From assembly GCF_001559775.1 (NCBI RefSeq), contig NZ_LOHX01000289.1:1-33664 (forward strand): DNA of 33,664 nt, given 5' to 3'. Positions within the stretch are counted from its first letter, which is position 1; each line of letters opens with the position of its first letter. The notes below the pieces were generated by a model. The model was not told the origin of the DNA. It saw only the letters and a program-made list of their open reading frames with translations, and ran no database searches. Both the position numbers and the translations under genes were made by a program. This document shows positions 1,475 through 32,885 of the stretch, piece by piece. The stretch comes from Streptobacillus felis (GTDB lineage Bacteria; Fusobacteriota; Fusobacteriia; Fusobacteriales; Leptotrichiaceae).

Positions 1475-4387
1475 ATGACAAATATAAACAAAGTGAAAAA
1501 GACACTTAAGTCATTTTTAAAAGGAAAAGTTAGTATAACAAAAAAGGTAACAATATTATTTTTAATAGCAGGTGTATCAGCATTTGCAGGATATAATAAT
1601 GCAGCACTTCCATCTTGGATAAATGCTTCAGAAATCCCAGGAAGTTGGGTATTTACAAATATGGAACCAGATAATGCAAAAACAATTACAGGAAATAATA
1701 ATATTGTTTTAGGGAGATTTGCTGGTGGAAATATTTCAGGAAGTCATAATTTTGTTGCAGGTCATAATGGTGCCGGTGGAGGAACAACTGGTATCAATAA
1801 TATTTTGATGGGACAAGAAGCAGGGGTAAATACTGCTGGACATAATAATGTTGCATTAGGAGATAGAGCTGGTAAGAATGTTACTGGTAATAACAACTTT
1901 GCTGCAGGTCCATTTGGTGCCGGTACAGGTGTAACAGGGTACTACAATATTGCATTAGGTAATGAAACAGGTCAAAATGTAGGATATGCAGGAAATGTTC
2001 CAGGATTAGAATCTTCAAATAATAACACTGGAATGGGTAGAAATAATGTTGCTATAGGTAGAAAAGCAGGAAATAGCGTACAAGGAAATGAAAATGTTGC
2101 TATAGGAGCAAGAGTAGGTGAAGGTGTTGGTTCAAAAGCAACAACAAATAGTGAAGGAATATATAATATTGTAGTTGGAGTAGAAAGTGGAAATAATACT
2201 CAGGGTGTTTCTAACGTAGCTCTTGGTAGAAATGCTGGGAATAATGTAGATGGGTCATATAACTTTGCAGTAGGACCTGGTGCTGGAAATGGGACAAAGG
2301 GTTCTAATAATATATTTATGGGTGAGAATGCAGGAGTATTAAACGGAGTTATTGCTAATCATACAATATCTATTGGAGGACAAACTAAAGCATTAAAAGA
2401 TAAAGTTATAGCAATAGGTTATGGTGCTCAAGCAAAAGAACTTAAGACAGTAGCTTTAGGTGGAAATGCAATAACTGACGTAGAAAATAGTGTATCATTA
2501 GGTAATGATACTGATACAGAAGGAACTGCAAATACAAGAACAAAAGGAACTGACAATACCTACACAACTGAAACAATATCTAATAAACTATCATTAAATT
2601 TTGCAGGAGGAGATCAAGTTGTAGGTGTAGTTAGTGTTGGAAATTCAAATCAAACAAGACGTATACAAAATGTAGCCCCTGGTTTAATTTCATCTACATC
2701 AACAGATGCAATTAATGGTTCTCAACTTTATGCATTAGCAGAAAAGGTTGCTAATATTGAAATTACAGCAGGAGGAGCATCACCTGTATTAAGCTTTACT
2801 GGGGATAATATAAAAACAACATCAGATGCAATAGGTAAAGTAGATTTAGGAACACAAAAACTTGCAATAAATGGAACTGATGGAAAAATAAAAACAGAGG
2901 TTGCTAAAGATGGACAAAGTGTTACTATTAATTTAGATGATGCTATAACAAATACTATTGCTGCAAAAGCGGATAAATCAGAAATTAAAACTTATGTAGT
3001 TGAAAATGGTAAAAATACTGTTGTTACAAAAGATGAATCAACTTCAGGAACAGTTAAATTTACTGTAGATGCAGAAAAAACAGTTGTAGTTGCAGGAACT
3101 GGTTTAAAAATGGTTTCAGAAGTTGCTGCTACTAAGGATAATAATTATGTCAACACATATACTTTAGGTTTAGCTGATGAAGTAGTTAATAAAATTGATG
3201 GAAAAGCAGATAAAACAGATATAGCAAAAACAACTTTAACAGTAACAGATGGAAAAGTTGCAGATTTAGAAGATGCAAACAAAACAAAATTGGTTACAGC
3301 AGATACAGTTAAAGATGCAATAAATAATACAGGATTCTTTATTAATTCAGGTAAAACAGAAGGAGAGAATACAGGAGCTAATAAGACTTTAGTTAAAGCT
3401 GGAGAAGAAGTTAAATTAATAGCAGGAAAAAATGTTACTATAGCTCAAAGTGGTAAAGAGTTTACTTTCTCTGTAGATTTACCTGAAATATCAAAAATAG
3501 AAGTTAAAGCAGAGGAAAACTCAGCAATAACTGTAACAAAAGATGCAAATAAAGATGTATATACTGTAGGAGTTAATGTTGACAATGATACTATAGTAAT
3601 TCAAGATGGTAAATTAAAAGCAATAATTCCTTCTATAGAGCCAGGTACTATAACAGATGAGGTTGTAGAAGGGAATAAGCTTGCAAAAACAGATGAGCCT
3701 AATAAATATGCAACTGCAGGAACTGTAGTGAATGCTATAAATACTTTAGGTAATAATACTATAAAACTTGCTGGAAATAGTGGAGAAACAAATACTCAGA
3801 ATTTAAATAAAGATGGTGGAATTAAGTTTGCTATTGAAGGAAATGGTTTAGTTAAAACAGAAGCAAAAGAAGATAAAGTTATTATAGATTTATCTGACGA
3901 AGCAAAAGAAAAATTAAATAAAATTGAAAATGTTGAAAAATCAACAACTTCGGCAATTTCTGGAGTAGCAAGTGCAGTAGCTATGGCTAACTTACCACAA
4001 GTAAGCAATATAGCAGGACATAGACATAATATTGCAGGATCATATGGATACTATAACGGAGAACATGCATTTGCATTAGGATTATCAGGATTAAATGAAA
4101 CAGGAAACTTAGTATATAAGGCAAGTGGATCACTTAATACTAAAGGTCATGTTGCACTTGGAGCAGGACTTGGATATCAATTTGACAAATTAGAATCAAG
4201 AAGAAAAGATATGTTAACATTACAAAGAAATGGAAATATAAACTTACTTGATGAAAAGGTTTATGAATTAGATCAAGAAGTTACAAGCTTAAAAAATAAT
4301 GTTAAAAATTTAGAAGGTGCAAATAAAGTATTAAATGAAAAATTACAGGAATTAGAAAAAATTGTAAATAAATTAATGAATAAATAA
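1475..4387 (+). CDS. Trimeric autotransporter adhesin TAA1 (YadA-like, type Vc)
   Basis: 970 aa. Residues 1-38 are a signal peptide with a long basic front (KVKKTLKSFLKGK) before the hydrophobic core, cut after VSAFA. Residues 58-350 are YadA-head repeats of about 15 aa ('NNVALGDRAGKNVTG'). A neck follows, with RRIQNVAPGL and TDAINGSQLY (410-419). The stalk to about 829 includes a TVKDAINNTGFF...LVKAGEEVKLIAGKNVTI module shared with TAA2. The anchor starts near 830 (GVASAVAMANLPQ) and its last strand ends GAGLGYQF at F903. Sixty-seven residues follow, including regular heptads (VYELDQE, VTSLKNN, VKNLEGA) of a coiled coil. By family, three chains form one 12-stranded outer-membrane barrel with the head outside, acting in adhesion or autoaggregation; the target cannot be read from sequence. 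It has its own promoter and terminator. Confidence 0.93.
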   Translation: MTNINKVKKTLKSFLKGKVSITKKVTILFLIAGVSAFAGYNNAALPSWINASEIPGSWVFTNMEPDNAKTITGNNNIVLGRFAGGNISGSHNFVAGHNGAGGGTTGINNILMGQEAGVNTAGHNNVALGDRAGKNVTGNNNFAAGPFGAGTGVTGYYNIALGNETGQNVGYAGNVPGLESSNNNTGMGRNNVAIGRKAGNSVQGNENVAIGARVGEGVGSKATTNSEGIYNIVVGVESGNNTQGVSNVALGRNAGNNVDGSYNFAVGPGAGNGTKGSNNIFMGENAGVLNGVIANHTISIGGQTKALKDKVIAIGYGAQAKELKTVALGGNAITDVENSVSLGNDTDTEGTANTRTKGTDNTYTTETISNKLSLNFAGGDQVVGVVSVGNSNQTRRIQNVAPGLISSTSTDAINGSQLYALAEKVANIEITAGGASPVLSFTGDNIKTTSDAIGKVDLGTQKLAINGTDGKIKTEVAKDGQSVTINLDDAITNTIAAKADKSEIKTYVVENGKNTVVTKDESTSGTVKFTVDAEKTVVVAGTGLKMVSEVAATKDNNYVNTYTLGLADEVVNKIDGKADKTDIAKTTLTVTDGKVADLEDANKTKLVTADTVKDAINNTGFFINSGKTEGENTGANKTLVKAGEEVKLIAGKNVTIAQSGKEFTFSVDLPEISKIEVKAEENSAITVTKDANKDVYTVGVNVDNDTIVIQDGKLKAIIPSIEPGTITDEVVEGNKLAKTDEPNKYATAGTVVNAINTLGNNTIKLAGNSGETNTQNLNKDGGIKFAIEGNGLVKTEAKEDKVIIDLSDEAKEKLNKIENVEKSTTSAISGVASAVAMANLPQVSNIAGHRHNIAGSYGYYNGEHAFALGLSGLNETGNLVYKASGSLNTKGHVALGAGLGYQFDKLESRRKDMLTLQRNGNINLLDEKVYELDQEVTSLKNNVKNLEGANKVLNEKLQELEKIVNKLMNK
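3962..4272 (+). repeat. TAA anchor repeat, copy 1
   Basis: Codes for the helix before the barrel, the four beta-strands and the linker up to LLDEKVYE of TAA1. About 310 bp are nearly identical to three other copies in the window (7573-7883, 10687-10992, 13538-13840). Similarity falls away sharply on both sides. This copy carries the most synonymous differences, and it has Ser instead of Ala in IAGSYGYY. Confidence 0.9.
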
Positions 4388-4578: not shown

Positions 4579-7500
4579 ATGAATAATTTAAATAAAGTTG
4601 TAAGAATTTTAAAATCAAATTTAAAAAATAAATTAAGTATCACAAAACAAACTATAATACTATTTTTAATGATGGGTATGTTAGGAATCTCAGAAGTAAT
4701 TTCAGATAATAACAAAGATAGTTTACACATAGGTACAGTTGCAAATAATGGAAGAAATAATATACTGGTAGGAGATGTAGCAACACCTGGAAATTATAGT
4801 ATAATATTTGCTACTAAAAATGGTGGTGGATGGCATGGAAATGGTAAGTATAAAATTGCATTTGGAGATGGTGTAAATGCTGATGGTGATGTAGAGTATG
4901 GAATAATATTTGGGAATGTTGCAGGACATGCTTTAAGTGGGAAATATAAGTTCATATTTGGAGAAGCAGCAGGATTTAGAAATAATGGAGAATATAATTT
5001 TGCATTTGGTAAAGCATCAGGAAGAGTAGTTAATGGAATCTATAATTTTGCTTTTGGAAATGAAGCTGGTCAAGATATAGCAGGAGGAAATAATATTTCC
5101 TTATTACAAGGTGCAGGATCTCAAACAAATGGTCATTTTAATATGGCTGTTGGATTCCAAGCAGGACAAATTACAAGAGGTAACTATAACTATGCTTTTG
5201 GTCCACAATCGGGGAAAAATACTACAGGAGATGAAAATATAGCAATAGGATCTCATGCAGGGAAAGATGTTTCTGGTAATGCTAACTATGCATTTGGACG
5301 TAGTGCAGGACAAAATGTATCTGGACTTGGAAATATAGCTTTTGGTGAAAATGCAGGTCAAAATGTAAAAGGGCTTCCTAATAATGAGATTTTAGGATAC
5401 TCAAATGTAGCAATAGGAAAAGAGTCTGGAAGAAATGTAATATCGAATCAAAGTTTAGCTTTAGGTTATAGAACAGGTGGACATGTAGGATATGTTACTT
5501 GGGATAATGCATCTAATGATTTTACAGCTAACCCGAGAGAGTATGTTAGAAATAGTGAAACTAATCCAAATGGGAATATTAAATCTGGTGCAGAGCATAA
5601 TACAGCAGTTGGAGCAAATTCTGGGAACTATATAGCAGGTCAAGATAATGTTGCTTTAGGAGAAGGTGCAGGAAACTATATAGATGGTCCAGAAGAAGGA
5701 GGAGCTGGAAATGTTGGTATAGGTAGAAAAGCGGGGAATAGAATTTATGGAAATGATAATATAGCTTTAGGAGCGAGTTCATCTAATAGAATTAAAGGAT
5801 CAAATAATATAGGAATAGGAACTTCAAGTTCAAATCAAGAAAGTTATTTAATTGAAAAGGAAAATACTATTTCTATGGGGACTTCTGCAGATTCTATAGC
5901 AAATAATGCTATATCAATAGGAACTAATGCAAAAACATTTAAAATAGATTCAATTACTATAGGTAAAGATTCACAAAATAGTGGAGAAAAAAGTATAATA
6001 GTAGGTTCAGAAAATACGATTACATCGGATAAATCAGGAATTTTTGGCTATAAAAATTATGTTTCATATAATCCAAACATACATGTAATAGGAAATAATA
6101 ATGGAGATTTTAATAACCAAATATCTGCACAAAATGGAGGAATCTTTGGAAATAACAATAAGTTACCAAATACAGCTATTAATAGCCGTATTATAGGAAA
6201 TAATAACGAGATTACAATAAATGATGGATTTATTGTAGGAAATGAATCAAAAATAAGTGGTAGTCATACAGTTGCTTTTGGTAATAATATTAATGCAAAA
6301 GAAAGCCAAAGTGTTTATTTAGGATTTAATTCAGATTTCAATTCAGATTCAACAAAAAGTGCAGGAAATACTACATACAGTAGCTATAATTTAACTGATA
6401 AAAATGGAGTAGTTAAGAAAACTTTTGATTTTGCAGCTCCAGTTCCTGTGGGAATTACAACTATAGGTTCAATAAAAAGTGAAAGAAGATTACAAAATGT
6501 AGCCGCAGGGTTAATAGGACCAAATTCAACTGATGCAATTAATGGATCGCAGCTTTATGCTTTAGCAGATTATGTAGCTAATTTAGAAAATCAAGTTAAT
6601 AATACAAGTCCAGTTAAGGTTGTTGATGGTAAAAACACATCAGTAACTACAGGAGATGATAAAGGGACAACAACTTATTCAGTTAATGTTAGTGGAGATT
6701 TAACTGAAATTACATCTATTTCAAATGAAGGAACTAAAATATCTTTAGAAGATGAAAATAAAGTGAATGTAAACGGGGCAACAATTACCAATGTATCGGC
6801 AGGAAAAGCTGATACAGATGCAGTAAATGTATCTCAATTAAATGAGTTAAAAACACAAATAAATAACAACAAAACTACAATAAATAATATAGAAAATAAA
6901 ATTTCTAAAACAGAACTTACAGTAGATAATGGTAAAGTTGTTAATTTAGATGATGAAAATAAAGATAAATTAGTTTCAGCAAATACAGTTAAAGATGCAA
7001 TAAATAATACTGGTTTCTTTATTAATTCAGATAGAACATTTGGTGAAAATATAGGAAGCAAGAAGACTCTAGTAAAAGCTGGAGAAGAAGTTAAATTAAT
7101 TGCAGGTAGAAATGTTACTATAAATCAAAGTGGGAAAAATTTTGAAATATCAATAGATAGACATTTAGCAACAGAATTTAATATAATTGGTGAAGATGGA
7201 ATAATAGCCGAAACTTCAACTGAAAATGGGAGAGATATTATTATTGTAAAATCAGATAAATCAGACATTATTTCAAAAAAGGGAGGAGAAGCTAAAACTA
7301 CAAAAGAGGATGGATTAGTTGACGCTAAAACTGTAGTTAATGCTATCAATGCTTTAGGAAATAACACTATTAGTCTTTCAGGAAATACTGGAAATACAGA
7401 TTCACAAAATTTAAATAAAGAAAATGGAATTACTTTTGGAATTAAAGGAAAAGGTTTAGTAACAACAGAAGCAAATGGAAATGAAATATTAATAGATTTA

Positions 7501-8016
7501 ACTGATGAAACAAAAGAAAAGATTAATAATATAGAAAAAGGAGCTAAATCAGCTTCAACTGCAGCTAATGCAGGAGTAGCAAGTGCAGTAGCAATGGCAA
7601 ACTTACCACAAGTAAGTAACATAGCAGGACATAGACATAATATTGCAGGAGCATATGGATACTATAACGGAGAACATGCATTTGCATTAGGATTATCAGG
7701 ATTAAATGAAACAGGAAACTTAGTATATAAGGCAAGTGGATCATTAAATACTAAAGGACATGTAGCATTAGGAGCAGGACTTGGATATCAATTTGACAAA
7801 TTAGAATCAAGAAGAAAAGATATGTTAACATTACAAAGAAATGGAAATATTAATTTACTTGATGAAAAGGTTTATGAATTAGATAAAGAAGTTAATGATT
7901 TAAAAACAAGTGTTAAGTATTTAGAAATGTCAAATAAGGAATTAAAAGAAGAAAATTTAAAATTAAATAATAGATTAGAAGAACTAGAAAATATAGTTAG
8001 AAAATCATTTAAATAA
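4579..8016 (+). CDS. Trimeric autotransporter adhesin TAA2 (YadA-like, type Vc)
   Basis: 1145 aa, the longest of the four. The N-terminus (KVVRILKSNLKNKLSITKQT, then ILFLMMGMLGISEV) matches the TAA1 signal region, but the mature start DNNKDSLHIGTVANNGRNN lacks the 'IPGxWxxTN' segment of the others. The head (about 55-640) has many YadA-type repeats ('YNFAFGKASGRVVNG') and a part rich in Asn and Ser (IGNNNEITINDGF). A first neck has TDAINGSQLY (651-660); a second has TNVSAGKADTDAVNVSQL (737-754). The stalk shares the TGFFINS...LVKAGEEVKLIAG module with TAA1. The anchor runs from about 999 to GLGYQF (F1072). A 73-residue tail follows, with heptads VYELDKE, VNDLKTS, VKYLEMS, NKELKEE. Predicted outer-membrane adhesin; the ligand is unknown. 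It is transcribed alone between a promoter and a terminator. Confidence 0.93.
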   Translation: MNNLNKVVRILKSNLKNKLSITKQTIILFLMMGMLGISEVISDNNKDSLHIGTVANNGRNNILVGDVATPGNYSIIFATKNGGGWHGNGKYKIAFGDGVNADGDVEYGIIFGNVAGHALSGKYKFIFGEAAGFRNNGEYNFAFGKASGRVVNGIYNFAFGNEAGQDIAGGNNISLLQGAGSQTNGHFNMAVGFQAGQITRGNYNYAFGPQSGKNTTGDENIAIGSHAGKDVSGNANYAFGRSAGQNVSGLGNIAFGENAGQNVKGLPNNEILGYSNVAIGKESGRNVISNQSLALGYRTGGHVGYVTWDNASNDFTANPREYVRNSETNPNGNIKSGAEHNTAVGANSGNYIAGQDNVALGEGAGNYIDGPEEGGAGNVGIGRKAGNRIYGNDNIALGASSSNRIKGSNNIGIGTSSSNQESYLIEKENTISMGTSADSIANNAISIGTNAKTFKIDSITIGKDSQNSGEKSIIVGSENTITSDKSGIFGYKNYVSYNPNIHVIGNNNGDFNNQISAQNGGIFGNNNKLPNTAINSRIIGNNNEITINDGFIVGNESKISGSHTVAFGNNINAKESQSVYLGFNSDFNSDSTKSAGNTTYSSYNLTDKNGVVKKTFDFAAPVPVGITTIGSIKSERRLQNVAAGLIGPNSTDAINGSQLYALADYVANLENQVNNTSPVKVVDGKNTSVTTGDDKGTTTYSVNVSGDLTEITSISNEGTKISLEDENKVNVNGATITNVSAGKADTDAVNVSQLNELKTQINNNKTTINNIENKISKTELTVDNGKVVNLDDENKDKLVSANTVKDAINNTGFFINSDRTFGENIGSKKTLVKAGEEVKLIAGRNVTINQSGKNFEISIDRHLATEFNIIGEDGIIAETSTENGRDIIIVKSDKSDIISKKGGEAKTTKEDGLVDAKTVVNAINALGNNTISLSGNTGNTDSQNLNKENGITFGIKGKGLVTTEANGNEILIDLTDETKEKINNIEKGAKSASTAANAGVASAVAMANLPQVSNIAGHRHNIAGAYGYYNGEHAFALGLSGLNETGNLVYKASGSLNTKGHVALGAGLGYQFDKLESRRKDMLTLQRNGNINLLDEKVYELDKEVNDLKTSVKYLEMSNKELKEENLKLNNRLEELENIVRKSFK
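7573..7883 (+). repeat. TAA anchor repeat, copy 2
   Basis: The anchor-coding block of TAA2. Its first 150 bp (AGTGCAGTAGCAATGGCAAA onward) match copies 3 and 4 almost base for base, including synonymous positions. Its end (gaaaaggtttatgaattaga) matches copy 1 instead. Confidence 0.9.
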
Positions 8017-8178: not shown

Positions 8179-11088
8179 ATGAAAATATCAAATAATTTAG
8201 AAAAAGTGATGAAGTCATATTTAAAAAGAAAAATAACTTTTAAGAAAGAAACAGTTATATTATTTTTAATGTTAGGTACATTTGCATTTTCTGGATATAA
8301 TAATGCTGCATTAAATTCAGGAATGAATCCAGATGTTATTCCAGGAAGTTGGATATTAACAAATGCAAAAGAAGAAACGGCTAAAACCATAGGTGGAGAT
8401 TCAAATATTGTATTAGGAAAAGAAGTTGGGGGTAATATTACTGGAAGGATGAACTTTATTTATGGTAATGATAAAGCAGGAGAAGGTACTACAGGAATAA
8501 ATAATATAATAATGGGTTCAGAAGCTGGTAAGAATACATCTGGACATAATAACGTTGCACTAGGAATTGGAGCTGGACAAAATGTATCAGGAATTAATAA
8601 CTTTGCTGCAGGTCCATCAGGTGCTGGAAAAGGAGTTACAGGATACTATAACATAGCATTAGGGACAGATAGTGGACAAAATGTAGGATATGCAGGAAGT
8701 GTTGCAGGCTTAGAATCTTCTAATGGAAATACTGGTATGGGTAGAAATAACATAGCCATAGGTAAAAATGCAGGAAATGGAGTGCAAGGAAATGAAAATA
8801 TTGCCATTGGTTCAAATGTTGGAGAAAATGTTGGTTCTAAGGCAACTAGTAATTCTGTAGGTATATATAACGTTGCTATAGGAAAAGAAACTGGGAACAA
8901 TGTACAAGGAACTTCAAATGTTTCATTAGGAAAGGGTTCAGGAAACAATGTTGAAGGTTCATATAATTTTATTGCAGGACTTAATGCAGGAAATGGCACT
9001 AAAGGTTCTCATAATATAATAATGGGGAACAAAGCTGGAGAATTAGGTACAGTAGAAGTTAGTGAAACTATTTCAATAGGTACTGAAACTAAGGCAACAA
9101 AAAATAATGTAACAGCAATAGGGTATAAAGCTCAAGCTTTAGAAGAAAAAACCATAGCATTAGGTGGTAATTCTATTGCAGATGTTGCAAATAGTATTGC
9201 ATTAGGTGATAATAGTAAAACAGAAGGAACTTCAAGCAATAGAACAAAAGGAACAGATACGAGTTATACAAAAGATGTAGTGGAAAATAAATTAAATTTA
9301 TCTTTTGCTGGAGGAGATCAAATAATAGGAGTTTTAAGTGTTGGAAATGAAAATGAAACAAGACGTATACAAAATGTTGCACCTGGTTTAATTTCAGAAA
9401 ACTCAACAGATGCTGTTAATGGTTCACAACTTTATGCTTTAGCAAAGGAAGTAGCTAACTTAAGTAATACAAGTGGAGTTGCAAATAATAATATAAAATT
9501 AGGTGGAGATACTGGAGAAACTGAAGCTCAAAATCTTGACAAAGAAAATGGAATAAAATTTGATATTAAAGGTGTCACAAAAGATGGAGTTACGTATATA
9601 GTCACTAAAGCAATGGGAGATAGAGTAGAAATTGATTTATCTGAGGAGACAAAAAATAAATTAAATATTCAAAATTATTTTCATGTTAATACAGGAGATC
9701 CTAACCAACCATTAGGATCAGATTCAAATTTAGGAACAATAGATTCTATAGGTGCAGCAAAAGGGAAGCATTCTCTTTCAGCTGGATATAGAGCATCATC
9801 TTTTGGAATAAATTCAGTCGCAGTCGGTACAGAAGCAGCATCAAATGGACAATATGGTGTAGCGATAGGACACTATTCACTAGTTGGTGAAAATTCAAGC
9901 AGCTCTATTTCAATAGGTAGTGGATCAGTTTCTGATGAAGGTGGGTCAATAGCTATAGGTAAAGAAGCTAAAGCGATGTTTGACAATGCAATTTCAATGG
10001 GGTCTAATGCGGAATCTAAAGCTATAAATTCTATATCAATAGGTTCAAATTCAGTAGCAGAAACAGAAGAATCTATAGCATTAGGTCCAGATGCAAAAGC
10101 AATAGGATTAAAGGCAGTTTCTTTAGGAGATAAAGCCATAGCAGATATAGACTTGTCAGTAGCTTTAGGTTCAAATTCTAAAACAACAGAAGCAGTAGCT
10201 GTAAATGATGCTACAGTTGGTGGATTAACTTATTCTGGATTTGCAGGTAATGAACCATCTTCAGTAGTTTCAGTGGGGAATAAAGAAGAAGGACAATATC
10301 GTCAGATTCAATATGTAGCAGCGGGGCAAATAAATAAAGATTCTACAGATGCAATAAATGGTTCACAGCTTTATGCAACAAATCTTGCATTAAGTAATTT
10401 AACAAAATCTGTTAAAGATATTTTAGGAGGAAATGCTAAAATAACTGAAACAGGAGATAATATAGGGAATATAACTATTACAAATATAGGAAATACAGGT
10501 AAAGATAATATACATGATGCAATTATTGCTTCAAAAACAGAAGTGAGATCAGGAGATGGTTCTCCAATTAAAGTTGAAAAAACTATAGATGATGTTGATA
10601 GCCACCCAATTTATACTTTGGATTTAGATGAAAAAACTAAGGAAAAATTAGAGAAATTAGAAAAATTAAGTTTTGATTCAAGTTCTGGTGTAGCAAATGC
10701 AGTAGCAATGGCAAACTTACCACAAGTAAGTAACATAGCAGGACATAGACATAATATTGCAGGAGCATATGGATACTATAACGGAGAACATGCATTTGCA
10801 TTAGGATTATCAGGATTAAATGAAACAGGAAACTTAGTATATAAGGCAAGTGGATCATTAAATACTAAAGGACATGTTGCACTTGGAGCAGGACTTGGAT
10901 ATCAATTTGACAAATTAGAATCAAGAAAAAAAGATATGTTAACATTACAAAGAAATGGAAATATTAACTTACTTGATGAAAAAGTTTATGAGCATGAAAT
11001 TGAAATAGAGAGCTTAGAAAAATTAAATAAAGAATTACTTGAAAAAGTAGAAAAATTAGAAAAAATGATTCAAAAACTAGAAAAATAA
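8179..11088 (+). CDS. Trimeric autotransporter adhesin TAA3 (two-headed, YadA-like)
   Basis: 969 aa. The signal peptide again has a long basic front (KVMKSYLKRKITFKKET), cut near GTFAFS. The mature start GYNNAAL...IPGSWILTN closely follows TAA1. The first head (about 60-340) is of ~15-aa repeats, then a neck with TDAVNGSQLY (410-419). A module ending VEIDLSEETKNKL leads to a second head starting YFHVNTGDPNQPLGSDSN, with 'SVAVGTEAAS / GVAIGHYS / SISIGSGS' repeats, and a second neck with TDAINGSQLY (723-732). The stalk is short, and the anchor runs from about 837 to GLGYQF (F910). The 59-residue tail has coiled-coil heptads (IESLEKL, NKELLEK, VEKLEKM). The ATG at 8179 is chosen because it starts the conserved signal region and an in-frame TAA precedes it directly; it lacks a normally spaced ribosome binding site (separate entry). 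Confidence 0.92.
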   Translation: MKISNNLEKVMKSYLKRKITFKKETVILFLMLGTFAFSGYNNAALNSGMNPDVIPGSWILTNAKEETAKTIGGDSNIVLGKEVGGNITGRMNFIYGNDKAGEGTTGINNIIMGSEAGKNTSGHNNVALGIGAGQNVSGINNFAAGPSGAGKGVTGYYNIALGTDSGQNVGYAGSVAGLESSNGNTGMGRNNIAIGKNAGNGVQGNENIAIGSNVGENVGSKATSNSVGIYNVAIGKETGNNVQGTSNVSLGKGSGNNVEGSYNFIAGLNAGNGTKGSHNIIMGNKAGELGTVEVSETISIGTETKATKNNVTAIGYKAQALEEKTIALGGNSIADVANSIALGDNSKTEGTSSNRTKGTDTSYTKDVVENKLNLSFAGGDQIIGVLSVGNENETRRIQNVAPGLISENSTDAVNGSQLYALAKEVANLSNTSGVANNNIKLGGDTGETEAQNLDKENGIKFDIKGVTKDGVTYIVTKAMGDRVEIDLSEETKNKLNIQNYFHVNTGDPNQPLGSDSNLGTIDSIGAAKGKHSLSAGYRASSFGINSVAVGTEAASNGQYGVAIGHYSLVGENSSSSISIGSGSVSDEGGSIAIGKEAKAMFDNAISMGSNAESKAINSISIGSNSVAETEESIALGPDAKAIGLKAVSLGDKAIADIDLSVALGSNSKTTEAVAVNDATVGGLTYSGFAGNEPSSVVSVGNKEEGQYRQIQYVAAGQINKDSTDAINGSQLYATNLALSNLTKSVKDILGGNAKITETGDNIGNITITNIGNTGKDNIHDAIIASKTEVRSGDGSPIKVEKTIDDVDSHPIYTLDLDEKTKEKLEKLEKLSFDSSSGVANAVAMANLPQVSNIAGHRHNIAGAYGYYNGEHAFALGLSGLNETGNLVYKASGSLNTKGHVALGAGLGYQFDKLESRKKDMLTLQRNGNINLLDEKVYEHEIEIESLEKLNKELLEKVEKLEKMIQKLEK
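10687..10992 (+). repeat. TAA anchor repeat, copy 3
   Basis: The anchor-coding block of TAA3. It matches copies 2 and 4 through most of its length. GVANAVAMANLPQ replaces GVASAVAMANLPQ, and the linker has RKKD instead of RRKD. The sequence diverges straight after KVYE. Confidence 0.9.
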
Positions 11089-11101: not shown

Positions 11102-13939
11102 ATGAAAAAAAATAATATAAAAAATAAAATTATAAATCCTATGTTAATTGTTTTTGCTATGGGAGTCATTGGATTTATATCTGAAAATTCATATGCTGGT
11201 TCAAATAATTATGCTATGCCAACATGGATATCACGTAATAATATACCTGGAAATTGGGTTATTACTAATACAGAGCCAGAAATTGCTTATTCTATAAGAG
11301 GAGATAACCATATATCATTTGGTAGATGGTCTGGTAATAATATATCGGGTAATAATAATTTTATTGCAGGACAAAATGGAGCAGGTAGAAATACTTCAGG
11401 AAATAGTAATATTATAATGGGGCAAGAAGCAGGAGTAGATACTACAGGAAATAGTAATATTGCATTAGGAGATAGAGCAGGAAAAGAAGTTTCAGGGAAT
11501 AATAACTTTTCTGGAGGTCCATTTGGTTCAGGAAATAGAGTTACAGGAAACAATAATATAGCTTTAGGAAATCAATCAGGTATAGCAGTTGGATATAAGG
11601 GTAATGATCCTGAATTATTAGATAAAATGGGAAACTATAACGTTGGAATAGGAAGATTAGCAGGAAATGATGTACAGGGTAGCGAAAACTATTCAATAGG
11701 TGCAAGGGTTGGAAGTAATGTAAACTCTACTGGTAATGTAGCAATAGGAGTTGAAAGTGGAAACAATGTACAAGGAAATGACAATATTTCATTAGGTGGT
11801 AATAATGGAAATAATGTTTCAGGTTCAAACAACTTTGTATCTGGAGGAGGTTCTGGACATAACATTAAGGGTTCTAATAATATAGTATTAGGTCATGATG
11901 CAGGTAATATAAATCAATTAACAGCTAATGATACAGTTTCTATAGGTAGATCAACAAAAGCTGAAAAAGATAATGTTACAACTTTAGGATATGGAGCAAA
12001 AGCAAAAGAAGATAAAACATTAGCTTTAGGAAATTCTACAGCAGATGTAATAAATAGTGTCTCTATAGGAGATGGTAGTAAAACAAATTCTTCAATAAGT
12101 AATAGAACAAAAGGAAACGACAATAGCTATACAACTGATACTATAGATGATAAAAGCTACACTTTTGCTGGAGGAGATCAAGTAATAGGAGTAGTAAGTA
12201 TAGGAAATGAAAATGAAACAAGACGTATACAAAATGTTGCACCTGGATTAATTTCAAAAAACTCAACAGATGCAATTAATGGTTCACAACTATATTCTTT
12301 AGCAGAAAAAGTTGCTAACTATAATTCCACAGGAGGTGTAGGAGACAATACAGTTAAAATTGGTGGGGATAATAAAACATTAACTAATTCTCAAAAATTA
12401 AGTAAAACAGGTGGAATTAAATTTGACATTGTTAAGTCAGAAAATAATTCATATATAGTTACAAAAGCAAGTAATAATAGAGTAGAAATAGATTTAACAG
12501 AAGAAGCAAAAGATAAAATAGAAAAAAACACATATTTTCATGTTAATACTGGAGATGCAGATCAAGAGGAAGGAGATTCTGTAACTAATTATGGAAGTTC
12601 TAGCTCTAAGGCTGGAGCATTAGCGAATCATTCTTTAACAGCAGGAATAGAAGTGGTATCTAATTCAGAAAATGGTGTTGCAATAGGTAGGGACATAACA
12701 TCTTTTGGTAGAGAAACGATTGCTATTGGAGATCAAGTTATTGTAAAAAAAGATACAGTTTCTTCAATAGGTATAGGGAAACAAGCTGTTATAGATGGAA
12801 AAGAAAGTATTGCAATTGGAGTTATATCGAATTCACAAAAAGATTATGGAATTTCTTTAGGGAATTATTCTAGGGCAAATGAAGTTAGAACGATAGCCAT
12901 AGGAAATGTTTCGCGTTCAGAATACGAAGGAACAGTCACTTTAGGAAAGTATTCTATTTCATATTCAGAAGGTTCGACTAATATTGGAGCTTTTACAATT
13001 AGTACAATTAATAAGTCTATATCTCTTGGAGCTGAAAGTATGGCTGTTGAAGCAGTTTCCGTAAATGAAGCTAGTATAGGTTCACTAACTTATGGAGGTT
13101 TTGCAGGTAATACTCCTTACTCATCATTTGCTATTGGATCTATACAAAATACACGTCAAATGCAAAATGTAGCTGCAGGACAAATTAATAAAAAAAGTAC
13201 AGATGCAATAAATGGATCTCAGCTTTATGCAACGAATAATGCTTTAGGTAATTTAACAAATGCAACTAAAACATTTTTAGGAGGAAACTCAATATTTGAA
13301 AAAGATGGGGATAATATAGCTAAATTTAATATGGATAATATAGGTGAAACAGATAAGGATAATATAAATGATGCTATTTCAGCTTCAATTACAGAAGTAA
13401 GAGTTGCTGAAGGATCGTTAATGCATATTGATAAAACAATAGCAGATGATGGGCATCATATTTATACAGTGGATTTTAATTCAAAAATTAGAGAGAATAT
13501 AAAAAAATTAGAAGATGCAGGACAAAATATAAATGCAGGAGTAGCAAGTGCAGTAGCAATGGCAAACTTACCACAAGTAAGTAACATAGCAGGACATAGA
13601 CATAATATTGCAGGAGCATATGGATACTATAACGGAGAACATGCATTTGCACTGGGATTATCAGGATTAAATGAAACAGGAAACTTAGTATATAAGGCAA
13701 GTGGATCACTTAATACTAAAGGTCATGTTGCACTTGGAGCAGGACTTGGATATCAATTTGATAAATTAGAATCAAGAAGAAAAGATATGTTAACATTACA
13801 AAGAAATGGAAATATTAATTTACTTGATGAAAAAGTTTATCAACAAAATATTAGGTTGACAAATTTAAGAAATTCAAGTTTAGCACTGTTAGATAAATTA
13901 AACTTTTTAGAAAATAAAATTGAAAAATTAATGAAATAA
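11102..13939 (+). CDS. Trimeric autotransporter adhesin TAA4 (two-headed, YadA-like)
   Basis: 945 aa, 13 nt after TAA3 and preceded by CGAGGAG, so very likely co-transcribed with it. It has an ordinary signal peptide (MKKNNIKNKIINPMLIVFAM..., cut near ENSYA) without the long basic front of TAA1-3. The mature start keeps the shared YAMPTW...IPGNWVITN. The first head (about 60-320) and neck with TDAINGSQLY (389-398) are followed by a YFHVNTGDADQEEGDS linker, a second head of 'GVAIGRDITS / TIAIGDQVIV' type repeats, and a second neck with TDAINGSQLY (700-709). The anchor runs from about 813 to GLGYQF (F886). The 59-residue tail has heptads (LTNLRNS, SLALLDK, LNFLENK). The architecture parallels TAA3, suggesting tandem duplication and divergence. 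Confidence 0.92.
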   Translation: MKKNNIKNKIINPMLIVFAMGVIGFISENSYAGSNNYAMPTWISRNNIPGNWVITNTEPEIAYSIRGDNHISFGRWSGNNISGNNNFIAGQNGAGRNTSGNSNIIMGQEAGVDTTGNSNIALGDRAGKEVSGNNNFSGGPFGSGNRVTGNNNIALGNQSGIAVGYKGNDPELLDKMGNYNVGIGRLAGNDVQGSENYSIGARVGSNVNSTGNVAIGVESGNNVQGNDNISLGGNNGNNVSGSNNFVSGGGSGHNIKGSNNIVLGHDAGNINQLTANDTVSIGRSTKAEKDNVTTLGYGAKAKEDKTLALGNSTADVINSVSIGDGSKTNSSISNRTKGNDNSYTTDTIDDKSYTFAGGDQVIGVVSIGNENETRRIQNVAPGLISKNSTDAINGSQLYSLAEKVANYNSTGGVGDNTVKIGGDNKTLTNSQKLSKTGGIKFDIVKSENNSYIVTKASNNRVEIDLTEEAKDKIEKNTYFHVNTGDADQEEGDSVTNYGSSSSKAGALANHSLTAGIEVVSNSENGVAIGRDITSFGRETIAIGDQVIVKKDTVSSIGIGKQAVIDGKESIAIGVISNSQKDYGISLGNYSRANEVRTIAIGNVSRSEYEGTVTLGKYSISYSEGSTNIGAFTISTINKSISLGAESMAVEAVSVNEASIGSLTYGGFAGNTPYSSFAIGSIQNTRQMQNVAAGQINKKSTDAINGSQLYATNNALGNLTNATKTFLGGNSIFEKDGDNIAKFNMDNIGETDKDNINDAISASITEVRVAEGSLMHIDKTIADDGHHIYTVDFNSKIRENIKKLEDAGQNINAGVASAVAMANLPQVSNIAGHRHNIAGAYGYYNGEHAFALGLSGLNETGNLVYKASGSLNTKGHVALGAGLGYQFDKLESRRKDMLTLQRNGNINLLDEKVYQQNIRLTNLRNSSLALLDKLNFLENKIEKLMK
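13538..13840 (+). repeat. TAA anchor repeat, copy 4
   Basis: The anchor-coding block of TAA4. Its first half matches copies 2 and 3. From GGATCACTTAATACTAAAGG onward its synonymous choices match copy 1. It looks like a mosaic. Confidence 0.9.
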
Positions 13940-25570: not shown

Positions 25571-26074
25571 TTAAAAAGTATATCCAGCCTGTATACCAAA
25601 ATTACCCTTACCATATCCAACATATGCTCCAATATTGTATCTTTCATTAACTTTAATTCCACCAGATACTAATCCAAGACCATCAAATACAGCATTTTTT
25701 TCACCGTTACTAGATACATCAGATCCCCCACCTATACCGGCTTCAGCTCCAACAAAACCTGATATTTTTTCAGTAATTTTAAAGTTTACATGAACTTCAG
25801 CACCTATTAAAGCTCTAACTTTTGCTCCAGAATAATACATTTTCTTGATTTGTGGTCCTGCAACTACAGTAAATTTAGGTCCAAAGGCCACATTAATATC
25901 ATGTCTAATTTCACTTCTCCATTCAGGTAAAATTGCAACATTTAATGGTAATATAACTTCATCAGCCTTTCCAACACCAACTCCACCTTCAACTTTAACT
26001 CTAGGACCTTCTACATAGGCACCAAAAGATGAAACGCTTACTAATAATGATAATGTTAATAAAAATTTTTTCAT
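25571..26074 (-). CDS. Small outer-membrane beta-barrel protein
   Basis: 167 aa from the ATG at 26074 (AAAGGAA upstream). The frame extends to 26212, but that extension lies upstream of the promoter. Residues 1-19 are a signal peptide (KKFLLTLSLLVSVSSFGA). The mature part is alternating polar/hydrophobic strands rich in Gly, such as VKVEGGVGVGKADEVILPLN, VRALIGAEVHVNFKI, ISGFVGAEAGIGGGSD and RYNIGAYVGYGKG. It ends IQAGYTF, with the C-terminal Phe of the outer-membrane beta-signal. Probably an 8-stranded barrel; the specific family and substrate are not recognised. It has its own promoter, divergent from ylxM-ffh. Confidence 0.75.
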   Translation of the reverse strand: MKKFLLTLSLLVSVSSFGAYVEGPRVKVEGGVGVGKADEVILPLNVAILPEWRSEIRHDINVAFGPKFTVVAGPQIKKMYYSGAKVRALIGAEVHVNFKITEKISGFVGAEAGIGGGSDVSSNGEKNAVFDGLGLVSGGIKVNERYNIGAYVGYGKGNFGIQAGYTF

Positions 26075-26101
26075 AATATATATTCCTTTCTCTTTTTTAT
26101 T

Positions 26102-26130
26102 ATTATACCACAGCAAAGCTATTAAATCAA
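26102..26130 (-). promoter_or_regulatory. Promoter of the small OMP gene
   Basis: On the minus strand, TTGATT (26130-26125), a 17-bp spacer and TATAAT (26107-26102). Confidence 0.75.
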
Positions 26131-26143
26131 AAACACTTAATTG

Positions 26144-26172
26144 TTGTAAAAAAACGGTAAATAGTGTAAAAT
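26144..26172 (+). promoter_or_regulatory. Possible ylxM-ffh promoter abutting the start codon
   Basis: TTGTAA (26144-26149), a 17-bp spacer and TAAAAT (26167-26172). The -10 ends directly before the ATG at 26173, and transcription would begin near the ATG at 26179. If used, it would produce a leaderless message. Confidence 0.4.
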
Positions 26173-26505
26173 ATGTGTATGAAAGAAATAGAAGAATATA
26201 TAAAGTACTCAATACTATTCATATATTACAAGGAACTTTTTTCTGATAAACAGAAAAAGTACTTATCTGCATATTTAGAGGAGGATAATTCATTAACAGA
26301 AATAGCAGAAGCTTTTAATGTAAGTAGACAGGCAGTTTTCGATAACATTAAAAGAGGATGTAAACAGCTAGATAAATATGAAAGTTTACTTGGAGTTATG
26401 GAAAGAGAAGAGAATATAATAATTAATTTGAAATGGTTAAGAGATAATTTCTCAAAAGAAAATTTAGATAAAATGATTAGAGAATACGAAGAAGGTGTAA
26501 ATTAA
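26173..26505 (+). CDS. ylxM: YlxM/p13-like HTH protein, SRP-associated
   Basis: 110 aa. It matches the YlxM family: LFSDKQKKYLSAYLEEDNSL ('lLt.kq..y...yy.eDlSl') followed by TEIAEAFNVSRQAVFDNIKR ('.EIAe...vSRQaV.D.ikr'). The helix-turn-helix is about residues 38-58, with a helical C-terminus. YlxM sits beside ffh in many bacteria and interacts with the signal recognition particle in streptococci. The start is ATG at 26173 or 26179; neither has a Shine-Dalgarno, unlike nearly all other genes here (see promoter entry). The stop overlaps the ffh start (TAATG). Confidence 0.88.
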   Translation: MCMKEIEEYIKYSILFIYYKELFSDKQKKYLSAYLEEDNSLTEIAEAFNVSRQAVFDNIKRGCKQLDKYESLLGVMEREENIIINLKWLRDNFSKENLDKMIREYEEGVN

Positions 26506-27865: not shown

Positions 27866-30346
27866 ATGTTCTTACAGAAATCAGATAGATTGGCTTTAGT
27901 CGATTCTAAAGGAAATAAAGTAAGTCATAGTAAATTGGTTGATAATGTTAAATATTTTTCAAAATTTGTAGTAAAAGATACAAAAAATATACAAAATTTT
28001 AATATTATAATGATGGAAAATAGAAAGGAATGGGTATATACTTTCTATGCAATTTGGGATAAAAAGAATATCCCATTAGTAATAGATTCAGAATCTAGTA
28101 TAGATGAAATAATATATTTCATCAAAGATTCGGATGCAACCAGTATCTATGTTTCTAATAAAAGCTATGGTAAGGCTAAAGAAGCAATAGATATTTTGAA
28201 TAAAGAGATGACAATAGTAAATATTGATAGTGTAGTTATAGATGAAAATAAACTAAATGAGCTCTCTAGGGATGATAGTATTTTAAAACATCCAGAAGGA
28301 GAAGAATTAGCTATAATGCTATATACTTCTGGTACTACAGGAAATCCTAAAGGAGTAATGTTAACTTTTAATAATATAGAAGCTCAGATAGAATCTATAA
28401 AATCATTAATGATAACAGAAGAAAATGAACAGGTACTGTGTGGACTACCTTTTCATCATATACTTCCATTAATGACTACCAACTTATTATTCATGCATTA
28501 TAGCAATCAATTTTCTATGGTATTTATAGACAAGCTTTCAAGTCAAGATATTTTAAAAGCGTTAAAAGAAAATGATGTAACTATATTATCTATGGTTCCA
28601 AGGGTATATAAGATGTTTTATAGCTCAATAAAAAGTAAGATAGATTCTAAAGTTACAACAAAACACCTATTTAAACTAGTTCAAAGAGCCAATAATATTA
28701 GGTTTTCAAGAAGAGTATTTAAGAAAATTCATGAATTATTCGGTGGTAAATTAACTAGGGTAATATCAGGTGGAGCTAAAACAGATAAAGAAATAGCAGA
28801 TTTTTTCGATACTATAGGTATAGAATATTTTGAAGGCTATGGTTTAAGTGAAACTTCCCCGGTTATAGCATGTTCAACAACAAAACATGGGAAGAAAAAT
28901 GGTACCGTAGGTAAAAAAGTAGATAATATAGAAGTTAAATTAGTAGATGAAGAACTTTGGGTAAAAGGGCCTATAGTTATGAAGGGATACTATAACAAAC
29001 CTGAAGAAACTGCTAAAGTCATAACTGAGGATGGGTGGTTTAAAACAGGTGATTTAGCAGAAATAGATGAAGAAGGATACATAACTATTAAGGGTAGAAA
29101 AAACTCTATGATAGTTTTATCTAATGGGAAAAATATAGATCCTGAAAAACTTGAAGATAGATTATTAGAATATTCATATGAAATTATTAAAGAAGTAGGA
29201 ATTTTTGCAAAAAATGACAAACTTGTAGCTTTAATAGTTATAGATAATAGAAAAGTAAAAGAAAAAAACATTACAAATATTAAATCATACATAGATGATG
29301 CAATATCTTTCTATAACGCTAAATCTCATGGTTATGAAAAGATATTGGAATATAAGATGACAGAAACGGAACTACCTAAAACACGTATAGGTAAGTTAAA
29401 AAGATTTATGTTAAAAGATATATATCTTGGACAAAATCAAAATGAAAAAAAGGAAAAAATAGAAGAACCAGATATGTTAGAATATAGGGTTCTTAAAGAA
29501 TATATATATAATATGAAAAATGAATATCCAGAACCTGATATGAATTTAGAGATAGAGTTTGGTTTAGATTCATTAGATCAGGTAGAATTACTTTCTTTTA
29601 TTGAAAGAAGTTTTGGAACAAAATTAACTGATGAGGAATTTAAAGAAAATATTAGTTTAATAAGTCTAGCTAAACTTGTTAAAAGTAAATCCGATAGTTT
29701 TGTAGAAACAAAGGATCAATGGAAAGATATAATAGAACACGCCCCTATCAAAAAACTTGACAGTGGTAAAGGTATTAGAATACTTAGACCTTTAGGATGG
29801 TTAATATTTAAGATATACTTTAGACTAAGTATTAAAGGTAAGGAAAATATATTAGATGAACCACAGATATTCATTGCTAATCATGCTAGTTTTATAGATG
29901 CTCTGGCACTAAATTTACTATTACCAAGAAAAGTAGCTAAAAAAACTTATTCTTTAGCTATAGATTGGTACTTTAAGAATAAATTGATGAAAAAATTTGC
30001 CAAAGAAACTAATGTAGTTTTATTAGATATTGATGGCAATATTAAAGAAAGTATTGAAGAAATTGCATCAATATTAAAACAAGGGAAGAATGTATTCATA
30101 TTCCCAGAAGGTACAAGAACTAAAGATGGAACTTTATCATCATTTAAAAAAACTTTTGCTATAATCTCAAAAGAAATGAATGTAAAAGTAACTTGTTTAA
30201 AAATAGATGGAGCTTTTGAAGCTTATTCAAGATATGATAAATTTCCAAAACCTAAGAAAATAACAGTTAGTTATTTAGGTGTAGTTAATCCGGATAATTT
30301 AAGTTATGAGGAAATAGTTAGTAAATCAAGAGATATGTATAACTAG
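27866..30346 (+). CDS. Acyl-CoA/ACP synthetase-ACP-PlsC fusion protein, copy A
   Basis: 826 aa, three domains. (1) AMP-forming acyl-acid synthetase, about 1-520: P-loop LYTSGTTGNPKGVML (152-166), GYGLSETSP, WFKTGDLAEIDEEGYITIKG, and the C-terminal lysine motif LPKTRIGK. (2) Acyl carrier domain, about 540-610: FGLDSLDQVELL with phosphopantetheine Ser569. (3) PlsC-type acyltransferase, about 650-826: NHASFID (H673, D678) and FPEGTRTKDG (746-755). It probably activates a fatty acid, loads it on the built-in carrier and transfers it to a lysophospholipid or glycerol phosphate; that sequence is inferred. E. coli Aas has related synthetase and acyltransferase parts in the opposite order and no carrier. 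AGGAGGAG precedes the ATG; the gene is 29 nt after ffh and probably in its operon. Confidence 0.85.
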   Translation: MFLQKSDRLALVDSKGNKVSHSKLVDNVKYFSKFVVKDTKNIQNFNIIMMENRKEWVYTFYAIWDKKNIPLVIDSESSIDEIIYFIKDSDATSIYVSNKSYGKAKEAIDILNKEMTIVNIDSVVIDENKLNELSRDDSILKHPEGEELAIMLYTSGTTGNPKGVMLTFNNIEAQIESIKSLMITEENEQVLCGLPFHHILPLMTTNLLFMHYSNQFSMVFIDKLSSQDILKALKENDVTILSMVPRVYKMFYSSIKSKIDSKVTTKHLFKLVQRANNIRFSRRVFKKIHELFGGKLTRVISGGAKTDKEIADFFDTIGIEYFEGYGLSETSPVIACSTTKHGKKNGTVGKKVDNIEVKLVDEELWVKGPIVMKGYYNKPEETAKVITEDGWFKTGDLAEIDEEGYITIKGRKNSMIVLSNGKNIDPEKLEDRLLEYSYEIIKEVGIFAKNDKLVALIVIDNRKVKEKNITNIKSYIDDAISFYNAKSHGYEKILEYKMTETELPKTRIGKLKRFMLKDIYLGQNQNEKKEKIEEPDMLEYRVLKEYIYNMKNEYPEPDMNLEIEFGLDSLDQVELLSFIERSFGTKLTDEEFKENISLISLAKLVKSKSDSFVETKDQWKDIIEHAPIKKLDSGKGIRILRPLGWLIFKIYFRLSIKGKENILDEPQIFIANHASFIDALALNLLLPRKVAKKTYSLAIDWYFKNKLMKKFAKETNVVLLDIDGNIKESIEEIASILKQGKNVFIFPEGTRTKDGTLSSFKKTFAIISKEMNVKVTCLKIDGAFEAYSRYDKFPKPKKITVSYLGVVNPDNLSYEEIVSKSRDMYN

Positions 30347-30395: not shown

Positions 30396-32885
30396 ATGTT
30401 TTTAAATAAATCTGATAGACTTGCGATAGTAGATTTTGATGGTACAAAAATTAGTCATACACAATTAGTAAATACTATTAAATACTACTCGAAATATGTA
30501 GTTACTGAAAGGCCTCCAAAGACTTTTAGTGTAATAATGATGGAAAATAGAACAGAATGGTTCTATGCTTTTTATTCATTATGGGATAAACATTTAGTCC
30601 CTGTTACTGTTGACGCTATGTCAACTAAAGAAGAAGTAGAATACTTCTTAAATGACTCGGGTGCATCTTGTATGTATGTTTCTAAGAATACTTATGAAGT
30701 TGCAAAAGCAGCAGTAGATGCAACTGGGAGAGATATACAGATATTTAATGTTGATGATGTATCTATTGATAAAACTATTTTATCAGATATTGAAAGAGAT
30801 GATAGAGTTCTTAATCATCCTGAAATGGACGAAGTAGCTATAATGCTATATACTTCAGGTACTACAGGAGCACCTAAAGGAGTAATGTTATCATTTGGAA
30901 ACATTTATCATGAAATAAGAGCTATAAGAAGTTTAGATATTACATGGGATGATGAACAAACATTAGCGGTACTTCCATTCCATCATATATTACCACTTAT
31001 GGCAACTAACCTTTACTATTTATATCATGAACATCAATATTCAGTTGTATTAGTAGAAAAGCTATCTAGCCAAAATATTTTAGCTGCACTTGCCAAGAAT
31101 GATGTAACTATGTTATCTATGGTTCCAAGAGTATATAAATTATTCTATAAGTCTATTAAAGATACTATAGATTCAAAATGGATAACAAGAGCTATATATT
31201 CATTAGCTAAGAAATTAAATAATAAGAAATTTTCAAAATTTGTATTTAAGAAAGTACACGATAAATTTGGAGGAAAATTAAGAAGTTTAATTGCTGGAGG
31301 AGCTAAATCTGATGTTGAAATTATAGAATTTTTCAATGTATTAGGTTTTGATTATTGTGAAGGTTATGGTTTAACAGAAACATCACCAGTACTTGCTGGA
31401 GGAACTCCAAATCATGGATATAAGGTAGGGACAGTTGGACTACCAGTAGATAATGTTGAAGTTAAAGTAGTAGATGGAGAATTATGGGTTAAAGGGCCTA
31501 TAGTTATGATGGGTTACTACAATAAACCTGAAAAAACAGCAGAAGTAATTACTGAAGATGGATGGTTCAAAACAGGAGATATGGTTGATGTTGATGACAA
31601 TGGATACATTACTATAGTTGGACGTAAAAATGCCATGATAGTTTTATCTAATGGTAAAAATATAGATCCTGAAACATTAGAAATTAAATTTATGTCTTCA
31701 ACTAACCCTATAATAAAAGAAGTTGGAATATTAGGTCATAATGATAAATTAGCAGCATTAATAGTAATAGATAGAAAAGAAGCTAAAAAATTAAATATTT
31801 CAAATATCAATGCACATATTAAAGATGCAGTTGAATTTTATAACGGCTCTGTTCATAATTATGAAAAAATATTAGATTACAAAGTTACAGAAGAAGAATT
31901 GCCTAAAACACGTATAGGAAAAGTAAGAAGATTTATGTTAAAAGATGTATATTCTGGAGAAGCTAAGGTTGAGAAAAAAGAAGTAGTAAATGAGCCTGAT
32001 AGTGAAGAATACAGAATACTTAAAGAATATATCTATAAAATGAAGGGAGAATATCCTGAAGTAGATAAAAATCTAGAGGTTGAATTTGGTCTAGATTCAT
32101 TAGATCAAGTTGAATTACTTACATTTATTGAAAATAGCTTTGGTATAAAAATGTCAGAGGATGAGTTTAAAGAAAACCTAACATTAATAGGATTAACTAA
32201 ATATATTTCTGAAAAATCATCAGGATATACAGAAATGACAGATCAATGGAAAGAAGTAGTACAAAATGCTCCTAAAACAGAGTTAAAAGATGGTTGGTTA
32301 ATGTTATTACTTAAACCTTTATTCTTCCTATTATTCAAACTATACTTTAGAATAGATATTAAAGGTATGGATAAGATTAATAAAGAACAACAAATATTTA
32401 TAGCAAATCATGAAAGTTTTGTAGATGGATTAGCACTTAGCTTATTAATACCTAATGATGTATTTGAGAAAACATATACTTTAGCTATAAATTGGTATTT
32501 CAAGAATGCATTTATGAAATTCTTTGCTAAACACAGTAATATACTATTATTAGACATAGATAGAAATATTAAAGGTACTATAGAAAATGTAGCTTCTGCT
32601 TTAAAACAAGGGAAGAATATATTCATATTCCCTGAAGGAACAAGAACTAAAGATGGTAAATTAGGTCAATTTAAGAAAATATTTGCTATCTTATCAAAAG
32701 AATTAAATATACCAGTAACTTGTTTAAAAATAGATGGAGCTTTTGAAGCTTACTCTAGATACGACAAATTACCTAAACCTAGAAAAATAGGTGTTAAATA
32801 TTTAGGACAAATAAGACCTGGAGATTTATCTTATACAGAAATACTAGAAAAAGCACAAAATATGTATAAAGAAGACGAGAAATAA
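30396..32885 (+). CDS. Acyl-CoA/ACP synthetase-ACP-PlsC fusion protein, copy B
   Basis: 829 aa, a full-length paralogue of the preceding gene with the same domain order. The synthetase has LYTSGTTGAPKGVML (about 151-165), GYGLTETSP, WFKTGDMVDVDDNGYITIVG and LPKTRIGK. The carrier domain has FGLDSLDQVELL (Ser568). The acyltransferase has NHESFVD (H672, D677) and FPEGTRTKDG (745-754). All catalytic motifs are intact in both copies, so neither looks degenerate. They may differ in acyl chain or acceptor. A stretch LMLLLKPLFFLLFKLYF before the PlsC domain could dip into the membrane; copy A has a less hydrophobic counterpart. AGGAAGAAAGG precedes the ATG, 49 nt after copy A, with no promoter recognised in the gap. 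A terminator closes the unit. Confidence 0.85.
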   Translation: MFLNKSDRLAIVDFDGTKISHTQLVNTIKYYSKYVVTERPPKTFSVIMMENRTEWFYAFYSLWDKHLVPVTVDAMSTKEEVEYFLNDSGASCMYVSKNTYEVAKAAVDATGRDIQIFNVDDVSIDKTILSDIERDDRVLNHPEMDEVAIMLYTSGTTGAPKGVMLSFGNIYHEIRAIRSLDITWDDEQTLAVLPFHHILPLMATNLYYLYHEHQYSVVLVEKLSSQNILAALAKNDVTMLSMVPRVYKLFYKSIKDTIDSKWITRAIYSLAKKLNNKKFSKFVFKKVHDKFGGKLRSLIAGGAKSDVEIIEFFNVLGFDYCEGYGLTETSPVLAGGTPNHGYKVGTVGLPVDNVEVKVVDGELWVKGPIVMMGYYNKPEKTAEVITEDGWFKTGDMVDVDDNGYITIVGRKNAMIVLSNGKNIDPETLEIKFMSSTNPIIKEVGILGHNDKLAALIVIDRKEAKKLNISNINAHIKDAVEFYNGSVHNYEKILDYKVTEEELPKTRIGKVRRFMLKDVYSGEAKVEKKEVVNEPDSEEYRILKEYIYKMKGEYPEVDKNLEVEFGLDSLDQVELLTFIENSFGIKMSEDEFKENLTLIGLTKYISEKSSGYTEMTDQWKEVVQNAPKTELKDGWLMLLLKPLFFLLFKLYFRIDIKGMDKINKEQQIFIANHESFVDGLALSLLIPNDVFEKTYTLAINWYFKNAFMKFFAKHSNILLLDIDRNIKGTIENVASALKQGKNIFIFPEGTRTKDGKLGQFKKIFAILSKELNIPVTCLKIDGAFEAYSRYDKLPKPRKIGVKYLGQIRPGDLSYTEILEKAQNMYKEDEK

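Follow-up and report, generated by a model that had tools for sequence, protein, structure and literature searches.

The four trimeric autotransporters encoded in the window, the whole analysed stretch of 33,664 nucleotides of Streptobacillus felis DNA, do not end with the last strand of their membrane barrel but continue for 59–73 residues beyond it. Each tail is composed of a conserved 25-residue linker followed by heptads. In tails of this type, the register is mostly kept and the charges are on average self-complementary, and the heptads have diverged behind barrels that are almost identical among paralogues. It is probable, judging from these sequence features, that the tail clamps three identical chains together in the periplasm and possibly also sorts the near-identical barrels by chain.

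The autotransporter genes are located between rpsF-ssb-rpsR and a cysteine-desulfurase-like gene, which is followed by a dnaE-like gene (names read off the translations). The open reading frames, with domains assigned by Pfam, are:

1475–4387, plus strand: trimeric autotransporter 1, 970 aa, with a signal region, YadA-type head/stalk, YadA anchor, and tail
4579–8016, plus strand: trimeric autotransporter 2, 1145 aa
8179–11088, plus strand: trimeric autotransporter 3, 969 aa
11102–13939, plus strand: trimeric autotransporter 4, 945 aa

The YadA_anchor domain (PF03895) was matched above the curated Pfam cut-off in all four proteins, which are type Vc trimeric autotransporters of the YadA family. 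Membership rests on the anchor; YadA_stalk was also matched in all four proteins and YadA_head in protein 3. By analogy with the anchor family, the proteins are expected to be homotrimers in the outer membrane. The anchors occupy the following positions:

4016–4183, plus strand: YadA_anchor of protein 1, residues 848–903, ending with GLGYQF (E = 1.5e-9; 44.6 bits)
7627–7794, plus strand: YadA_anchor of protein 2, residues 1017–1072 (E = 1.9e-10)
10741–10908, plus strand: YadA_anchor of protein 3, residues 855–910 (E = 1.6e-10)
13592–13759, plus strand: YadA_anchor of protein 4, residues 831–886 (E = 1.5e-10)

At the other end of the proteins, the N-termini contain long basic signal regions (1475–1600 and 8179–8300 of the window), which match the NCBIfam Fusobacterium autotransporter N-terminal domain with a score below the cut-off.

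The last barrel strand is usually located at the C-terminus of YadA-type proteins, yet this is not a defining feature. In the window proteins, the Pfam match reaches the final profile position (60/60) exactly at F903, F1072, F910, and F886, and tails of 67, 73, 59, and 59 residues follow in proteins 1, 2, 3, and 4, respectively. The earlier note had placed 59–73 residues behind GLGYQF at these four phenylalanines, and every number was right; however, the tail of protein 1 begins at nucleotide 4184 (4184–4384) and not at 4182, which falls within the codon of F903. The solved structures nearest to the window anchors are those of the Hia anchors (2gr7 and 2gr8), the chains of which stop at the matching residue. 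A small outer-membrane-type protein encoded on the minus strand of the window (25571–26212) has the usual C-terminal aromatic residue (AGYTF), in contrast to the tailed barrels. The linkers were delimited by sequence comparison and the coils by heptad statistics, complemented for protein 1 by a helix predicted by AlphaFold2:

4184–4258, plus strand: conserved linker of protein 1, residues 904–928, DKLESRRKDMLTLQRNGNINLLDEK
7795–7869, plus strand: conserved linker of protein 2
10909–10983, plus strand: conserved linker of protein 3
13760–13834, plus strand: conserved linker of protein 4
4259–4384, plus strand: predicted coiled coil of protein 1, six heptads, the first beginning with V929 at position a
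7870–8013, plus strand: predicted coiled coil of protein 2, about seven heptads, with RLEELE inside
10984–11085, plus strand: predicted coiled coil of protein 3, about five heptads, net g–e' self-pairing score 0
13835–13936, plus strand: predicted coiled coil of protein 4, about five heptads, net g–e' self-pairing score 0

The linker LESRRKDMLTLQRNGNINLL is identical in three of the window proteins, and protein 3 differs from it (LESRKKD). Most Streptobacillus coil-only tails keep the linker core RNGNIN[LM]LDEKVYE almost unchanged, whereas the remainder of the linker varies across species, which suggests that part of the linker is under a constraint of its own.

The description of the tails in the earlier note as a linker with heptads is borne out by tests in which the heptads exceed chance in shuffles, in register, and in charge self-complementarity. 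The a and d positions of 61 coil-only tails from Fusobacteriota are occupied by I, L, V, M, or F in 75% of cases, compared to 14% elsewhere. Composition-matched shuffles are outscored by 50 of the 61 tails (p < 0.05). Of 24 distinct tails, 20 have over their last 21 residues the register that follows from placing the linker valine at position a (binomial 7e-14); the sequences used in the heptad, register, and charge tests are related, so that all of the p-values are too optimistic. The tails grow and shrink by whole heptads with the register kept: the distance from the linker valine to the C-terminus clusters at 27, 34, and 41 residues, in steps of seven, and gaps in the alignment of the window tails span seven residues. 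Two separate tail sets were scored for the charge pairing of a tail with itself from g to e' (i to i + 5); the values are 0.42 and 0.48 (z of 4.7 and 5.7), and in each set this pair is the strongest among 22 surface position pairs. Such self-complementarity favours an arrangement in which identical chains pair in parallel and in register.

R-h-x-x-h-E is a trimer motif, and it occurs in 21 of the 61 coils, compared to 2.2 expected. Taken alone, this motif and the g–e' pairing fit a dimer as well as a trimer; the tail is predicted to be three-stranded from its barrel together with the trimer-type motif. One core a position is occupied by asparagine in most Streptobacillus coils. AlphaFold2 modelling of a single chain produced one helix across the tail, with a pLDDT of 83–92 in the distal part, and a poorly modelled barrel. 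Pfam matches of single tails to P10, bZIP, ZapB, LPP, and other families were below the cut-off and generic to coiled coils, so that homology to these families was rejected.

The four-strand topology of Hia and YadA anchors, with its pore helix, sets the C-terminus in the periplasm. The periplasmic position of the tail is well supported by analogy, because this anchor topology is complemented by the peptidoglycan-binding OmpA domain on the tails of sister proteins. No match to an OmpA (PF00691) or SLH domain was found by Pfam in the four window proteins. Contact of the tail with peptidoglycan, as proposed in the earlier note, probably occurs in the OmpA-tailed sisters, but nothing points to it in the window proteins; a docking partner is possible without being indicated, and the fixing of the trimer by the tail has indirect support.

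The genome of S. felis, a bacterium of the rat-bite-fever type, encodes 15 anchors, all of which have tails. Twelve of the tails are coil-only, an OmpA domain terminates two others (L012, 1.1e-18; L014, 5.7e-14), and one belongs to an interrupted copy. In the interrupted copy (L013; G000:C101:6342-6988, minus strand), the anchor (6803–6988) and a 37-residue tail are followed by a stop and a separate OmpA stretch (6342–6593), and the locus seems to be either an OmpA-tailed autotransporter that was interrupted or an error in assembly. Anchors are present in 31 of 91 Fusobacteriota genomes; 123 were read from the 31 genomes, with the weakest matches left aside, and two partial anchors were omitted from the tree. 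Fusobacteriaceae-like genomes have tails on 13 of 42 anchors, all 13 in one clade, and their tail-less anchors stop no more than about ten residues past the matched anchor. An anchor-based scan with a narrow alignment produced matches only in Streptobacillus (S. notomytis) and Oceanivirga (O. miroungae). YadA-like coding sequences on plasmids of E. coli and Burkholderia stop directly after the anchor match. On two E. coli plasmids, the YadA-like gene (L156, 1–2424; L157, 1–2214) is directly followed by a separate OmpA-family gene, which resembles TpgA acting in trans. The survey covered Fusobacteriota and Proteobacterial plasmids, and the spread of tails in other phyla is taken from PMC7549365.

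Coiled-coil, SLH, or OmpA domains behind the anchor have been described in trimeric autotransporters (TAAs) of Veillonella, other Negativicutes, Synergistetes, and Fusobacteria (Bechon 2020, PMC7549365), and the SLH form was reported as early as 2017 (PMC5491611). S. moniliformis was named for both the coiled-coil and OmpA forms, and the function of the coil was called unknown (PMC7549365). The window proteins resemble these TAAs in that the coil follows the YadA anchor directly, and the genus is identical. Therefore, the novelty of a coil behind the anchor, implied by the earlier note, does not hold, and in Leptotrichiaceae, the family of S. felis, a tail is the rule (78 of 79 sampled anchors). 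Other parts of that reading are supported, namely the heptads by their statistics and the periplasmic side by topology and the OmpA-tailed sisters. The previous work relied on COILS and Pfam and left the function of the coil open (PMC7549365); the present analysis adds the register, the self-pairing, the homogenised barrel cassette, and the switching of tails.

Coil-only and coil-plus-OmpA tails have interchanged at least 4–5 times on the anchor tree, which is short and weakly resolved. This interchange and the apparently interrupted OmpA-tailed gene L013 agree with the possibility that the coil-only tail is a remnant, or a precursor (acceptor), of an OmpA stalk that has little function and is harmless to assembly. 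However, the self-complementary g–e' charges, the kept register, and the length changes in heptad units indicate that selection maintains the coil-only tails as coils, and the coil-only clade in Fusobacteriaceae-like genomes has a separate origin with no OmpA relatives. It is thus improbable that the tail is such a by-product.

The barrels and the coils of the paralogues differ in their conservation. Among ten paralogues from the S. felis genome, the mean DNA identity is 94% for anchors and 95% for linkers, compared to 56% for coils. The DNA identity of nine of the paralogues is approximately 0.40–0.50 before the pore helix, 0.96 in the pore helix, barrel, and linker, and 0.45–0.60 in the coil. 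The seemingly homogenised block of approximately 300 nucleotides corresponds to 3956–4258, 7567–7869, 10681–10983, and 13532–13834 of the window, and is found in six further genes of the genome. The passenger and coil have diverged on either side of the shared block, which has sharp edges. Between L002 and L004, the second gene of the window, approximately 600 nucleotides are 96% identical, with abrupt divergence on both flanks. Gene conversion or the homology-limited spread of a cassette would explain the shared block. Coil-tailed anchors have a median identity of 0.93 to the anchor of the nearest paralogue, and tail-less anchors one of 0.52; this difference is also found within genomes G017, G036, and G037. 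Swapping of tails between barrels is suggested by L106 and L120 from genome G087, which we take to be S. moniliformis, because they have an identical coil despite anchors that are only 70% alike.

In the proposed mechanism, three identical chains would form a short parallel coil in the periplasm, below the pore of the shared 12-stranded barrel. The coil would be 4–7 heptads long in tails of the window type from the S. felis genome, corresponding to about 4–7 nm. It would function as a homotypic C-terminal clamp, gathering three like chains in register during barrel assembly in the periplasm and afterwards locking the anchor; in the sister proteins, a similar coil would be the stalk of a peptidoglycan-binding OmpA domain. 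The trimerisation of UpaG takes place in the periplasm ahead of passenger export (PMC5670179), and by analogy a homotypic C-terminal coil is suitably positioned to keep three like chains together at this step. Against the clamp, tail-less YadA anchors trimerise without one, and many of the Fusobacteriaceae-like anchors are tail-less.

The clamp may also help prevent different adhesins from mixing, since ten paralogues in one genome combine an almost identical barrel with different coils. A passage of PMC6604945, citing Mikula 2012, describes the mixing of two TAAs as lethal. If recombination keeps co-resident barrels almost identical, the barrels cannot distinguish siblings, and fast-diverging coils could serve as chain-sorting tags that favour trimers of the same adhesin before insertion and avoid mixed ones. 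Such sorting is a conjecture, and we regard it as possible but rather doubtful. The charge pairing within genomes is 0.42 for homotypic and 0.05 for heterotypic combinations; however, negative design against mixing was looked for in the coil pairing and was not found, as the heterotypic score equals the expectation from composition. A sibling coil gives a better score than self-pairing for 9 of 24 tails, three of which belong to window proteins 1, 3, and 4, and the tails of proteins 3 and 4 have no net self-pairing. Genomes G059, G071, and G074, each with a single detected anchor, nevertheless have coils, although no sorting would be needed there. Sorting as the main role is weakened by these three genomes, the common coil of L106 and L120, the heterotypic score at expectation, and the sibling-preferring tails, so that the clamp is held to be the most likely role. 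To our knowledge, it has rarely been asked how cells encoding a dozen homotrimeric autotransporters avoid mixing. The tails are positioned where trimerisation is thought to begin, pair best with themselves on average, and follow near-identical barrels; the avoidance of mixing thus becomes testable within one gene family.

It is also conceivable, although unlikely, that the coil tethers the barrel to peptidoglycan without a dedicated domain, by reaching the cell wall, where its basic C-terminus would bind or would be joined by an L,D-transpeptidase, as in Braun lipoprotein (Lpp). Lpp is a short periplasmic coiled coil, often with a C-terminal lysine; it is lipid-anchored, and the lysine is essential. 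By contrast, the window-type coil is anchored by the barrel, and lysine is not conserved: it terminates 42 of 61 coil tails (69%), compared to 32.5% of 200 other open reading frames of the genome, and tails also end in Arg, Asn, Ile, Gly, Ser, and His. The tail of L010 from S. felis ends in Arg, Leptotrichia-like tails have R, G, or S as their last residue, and tail-less anchors also tend to have K or R at their ends, so that the basic terminus is not specific to tails. The length of the coil is compatible with reaching towards the wall, the genome contains one gene for a YkuD-type L,D-transpeptidase (G000:C152:128069-128509), and sister tails end in an OmpA domain; however, the window tails contain no peptidoglycan-binding domain detectable by Pfam. 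Peptidoglycan binding has been suggested for the SLH and OmpA variants (PMC7549365).

The proposed clamp has partial counterparts in other trimeric outer-membrane proteins. OmpM of Veillonella (PMC10628300) also has a periplasmic three-stranded coiled coil; however, its stalk is N-terminal, and it has an SLH domain and a 16-stranded porin barrel, so that homology is not claimed. In the AtaA–TpgA system of Acinetobacter (PMC13082670), a periplasmic element likewise reinforces a trimeric anchor and links it to peptidoglycan. TpgA is a separate protein encoded beside the adhesin, whereas the periplasmic part is here fused to the barrel chain, and an intact OmpA domain is present in only 2 of the 15 tails of the genome. 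Two ways of anchoring a long fibre are seen: in the present family the coil or OmpA stalk is fused to the anchor, and in Proteobacteria a protein of the TpgA type is encoded separately. Similarly to TpgA on the AtaA anchor, a separate periplasmic partner could dock to the tail, with the conserved linker as the binding surface. Conservation, both within and between species, is much stronger in the linker core than in the coil, and Proteobacteria can have a separate OmpA-family gene after the TAA gene (PMC13082670; plasmid loci). However, there is no OmpA-family gene beside the window cluster, the sole stand-alone OmpA-family match of the genome is located on contig C301, and two sister-species paralogues (L100 and L118) lack the linker, which makes a docking site quite improbable. 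Elsewhere in the window, a tandem pair of similar proteins (27866–30346 and 30396–32885) appears to fuse AMP-binding (acyl-CoA-synthetase-like), carrier-like, and acyltransferase parts.
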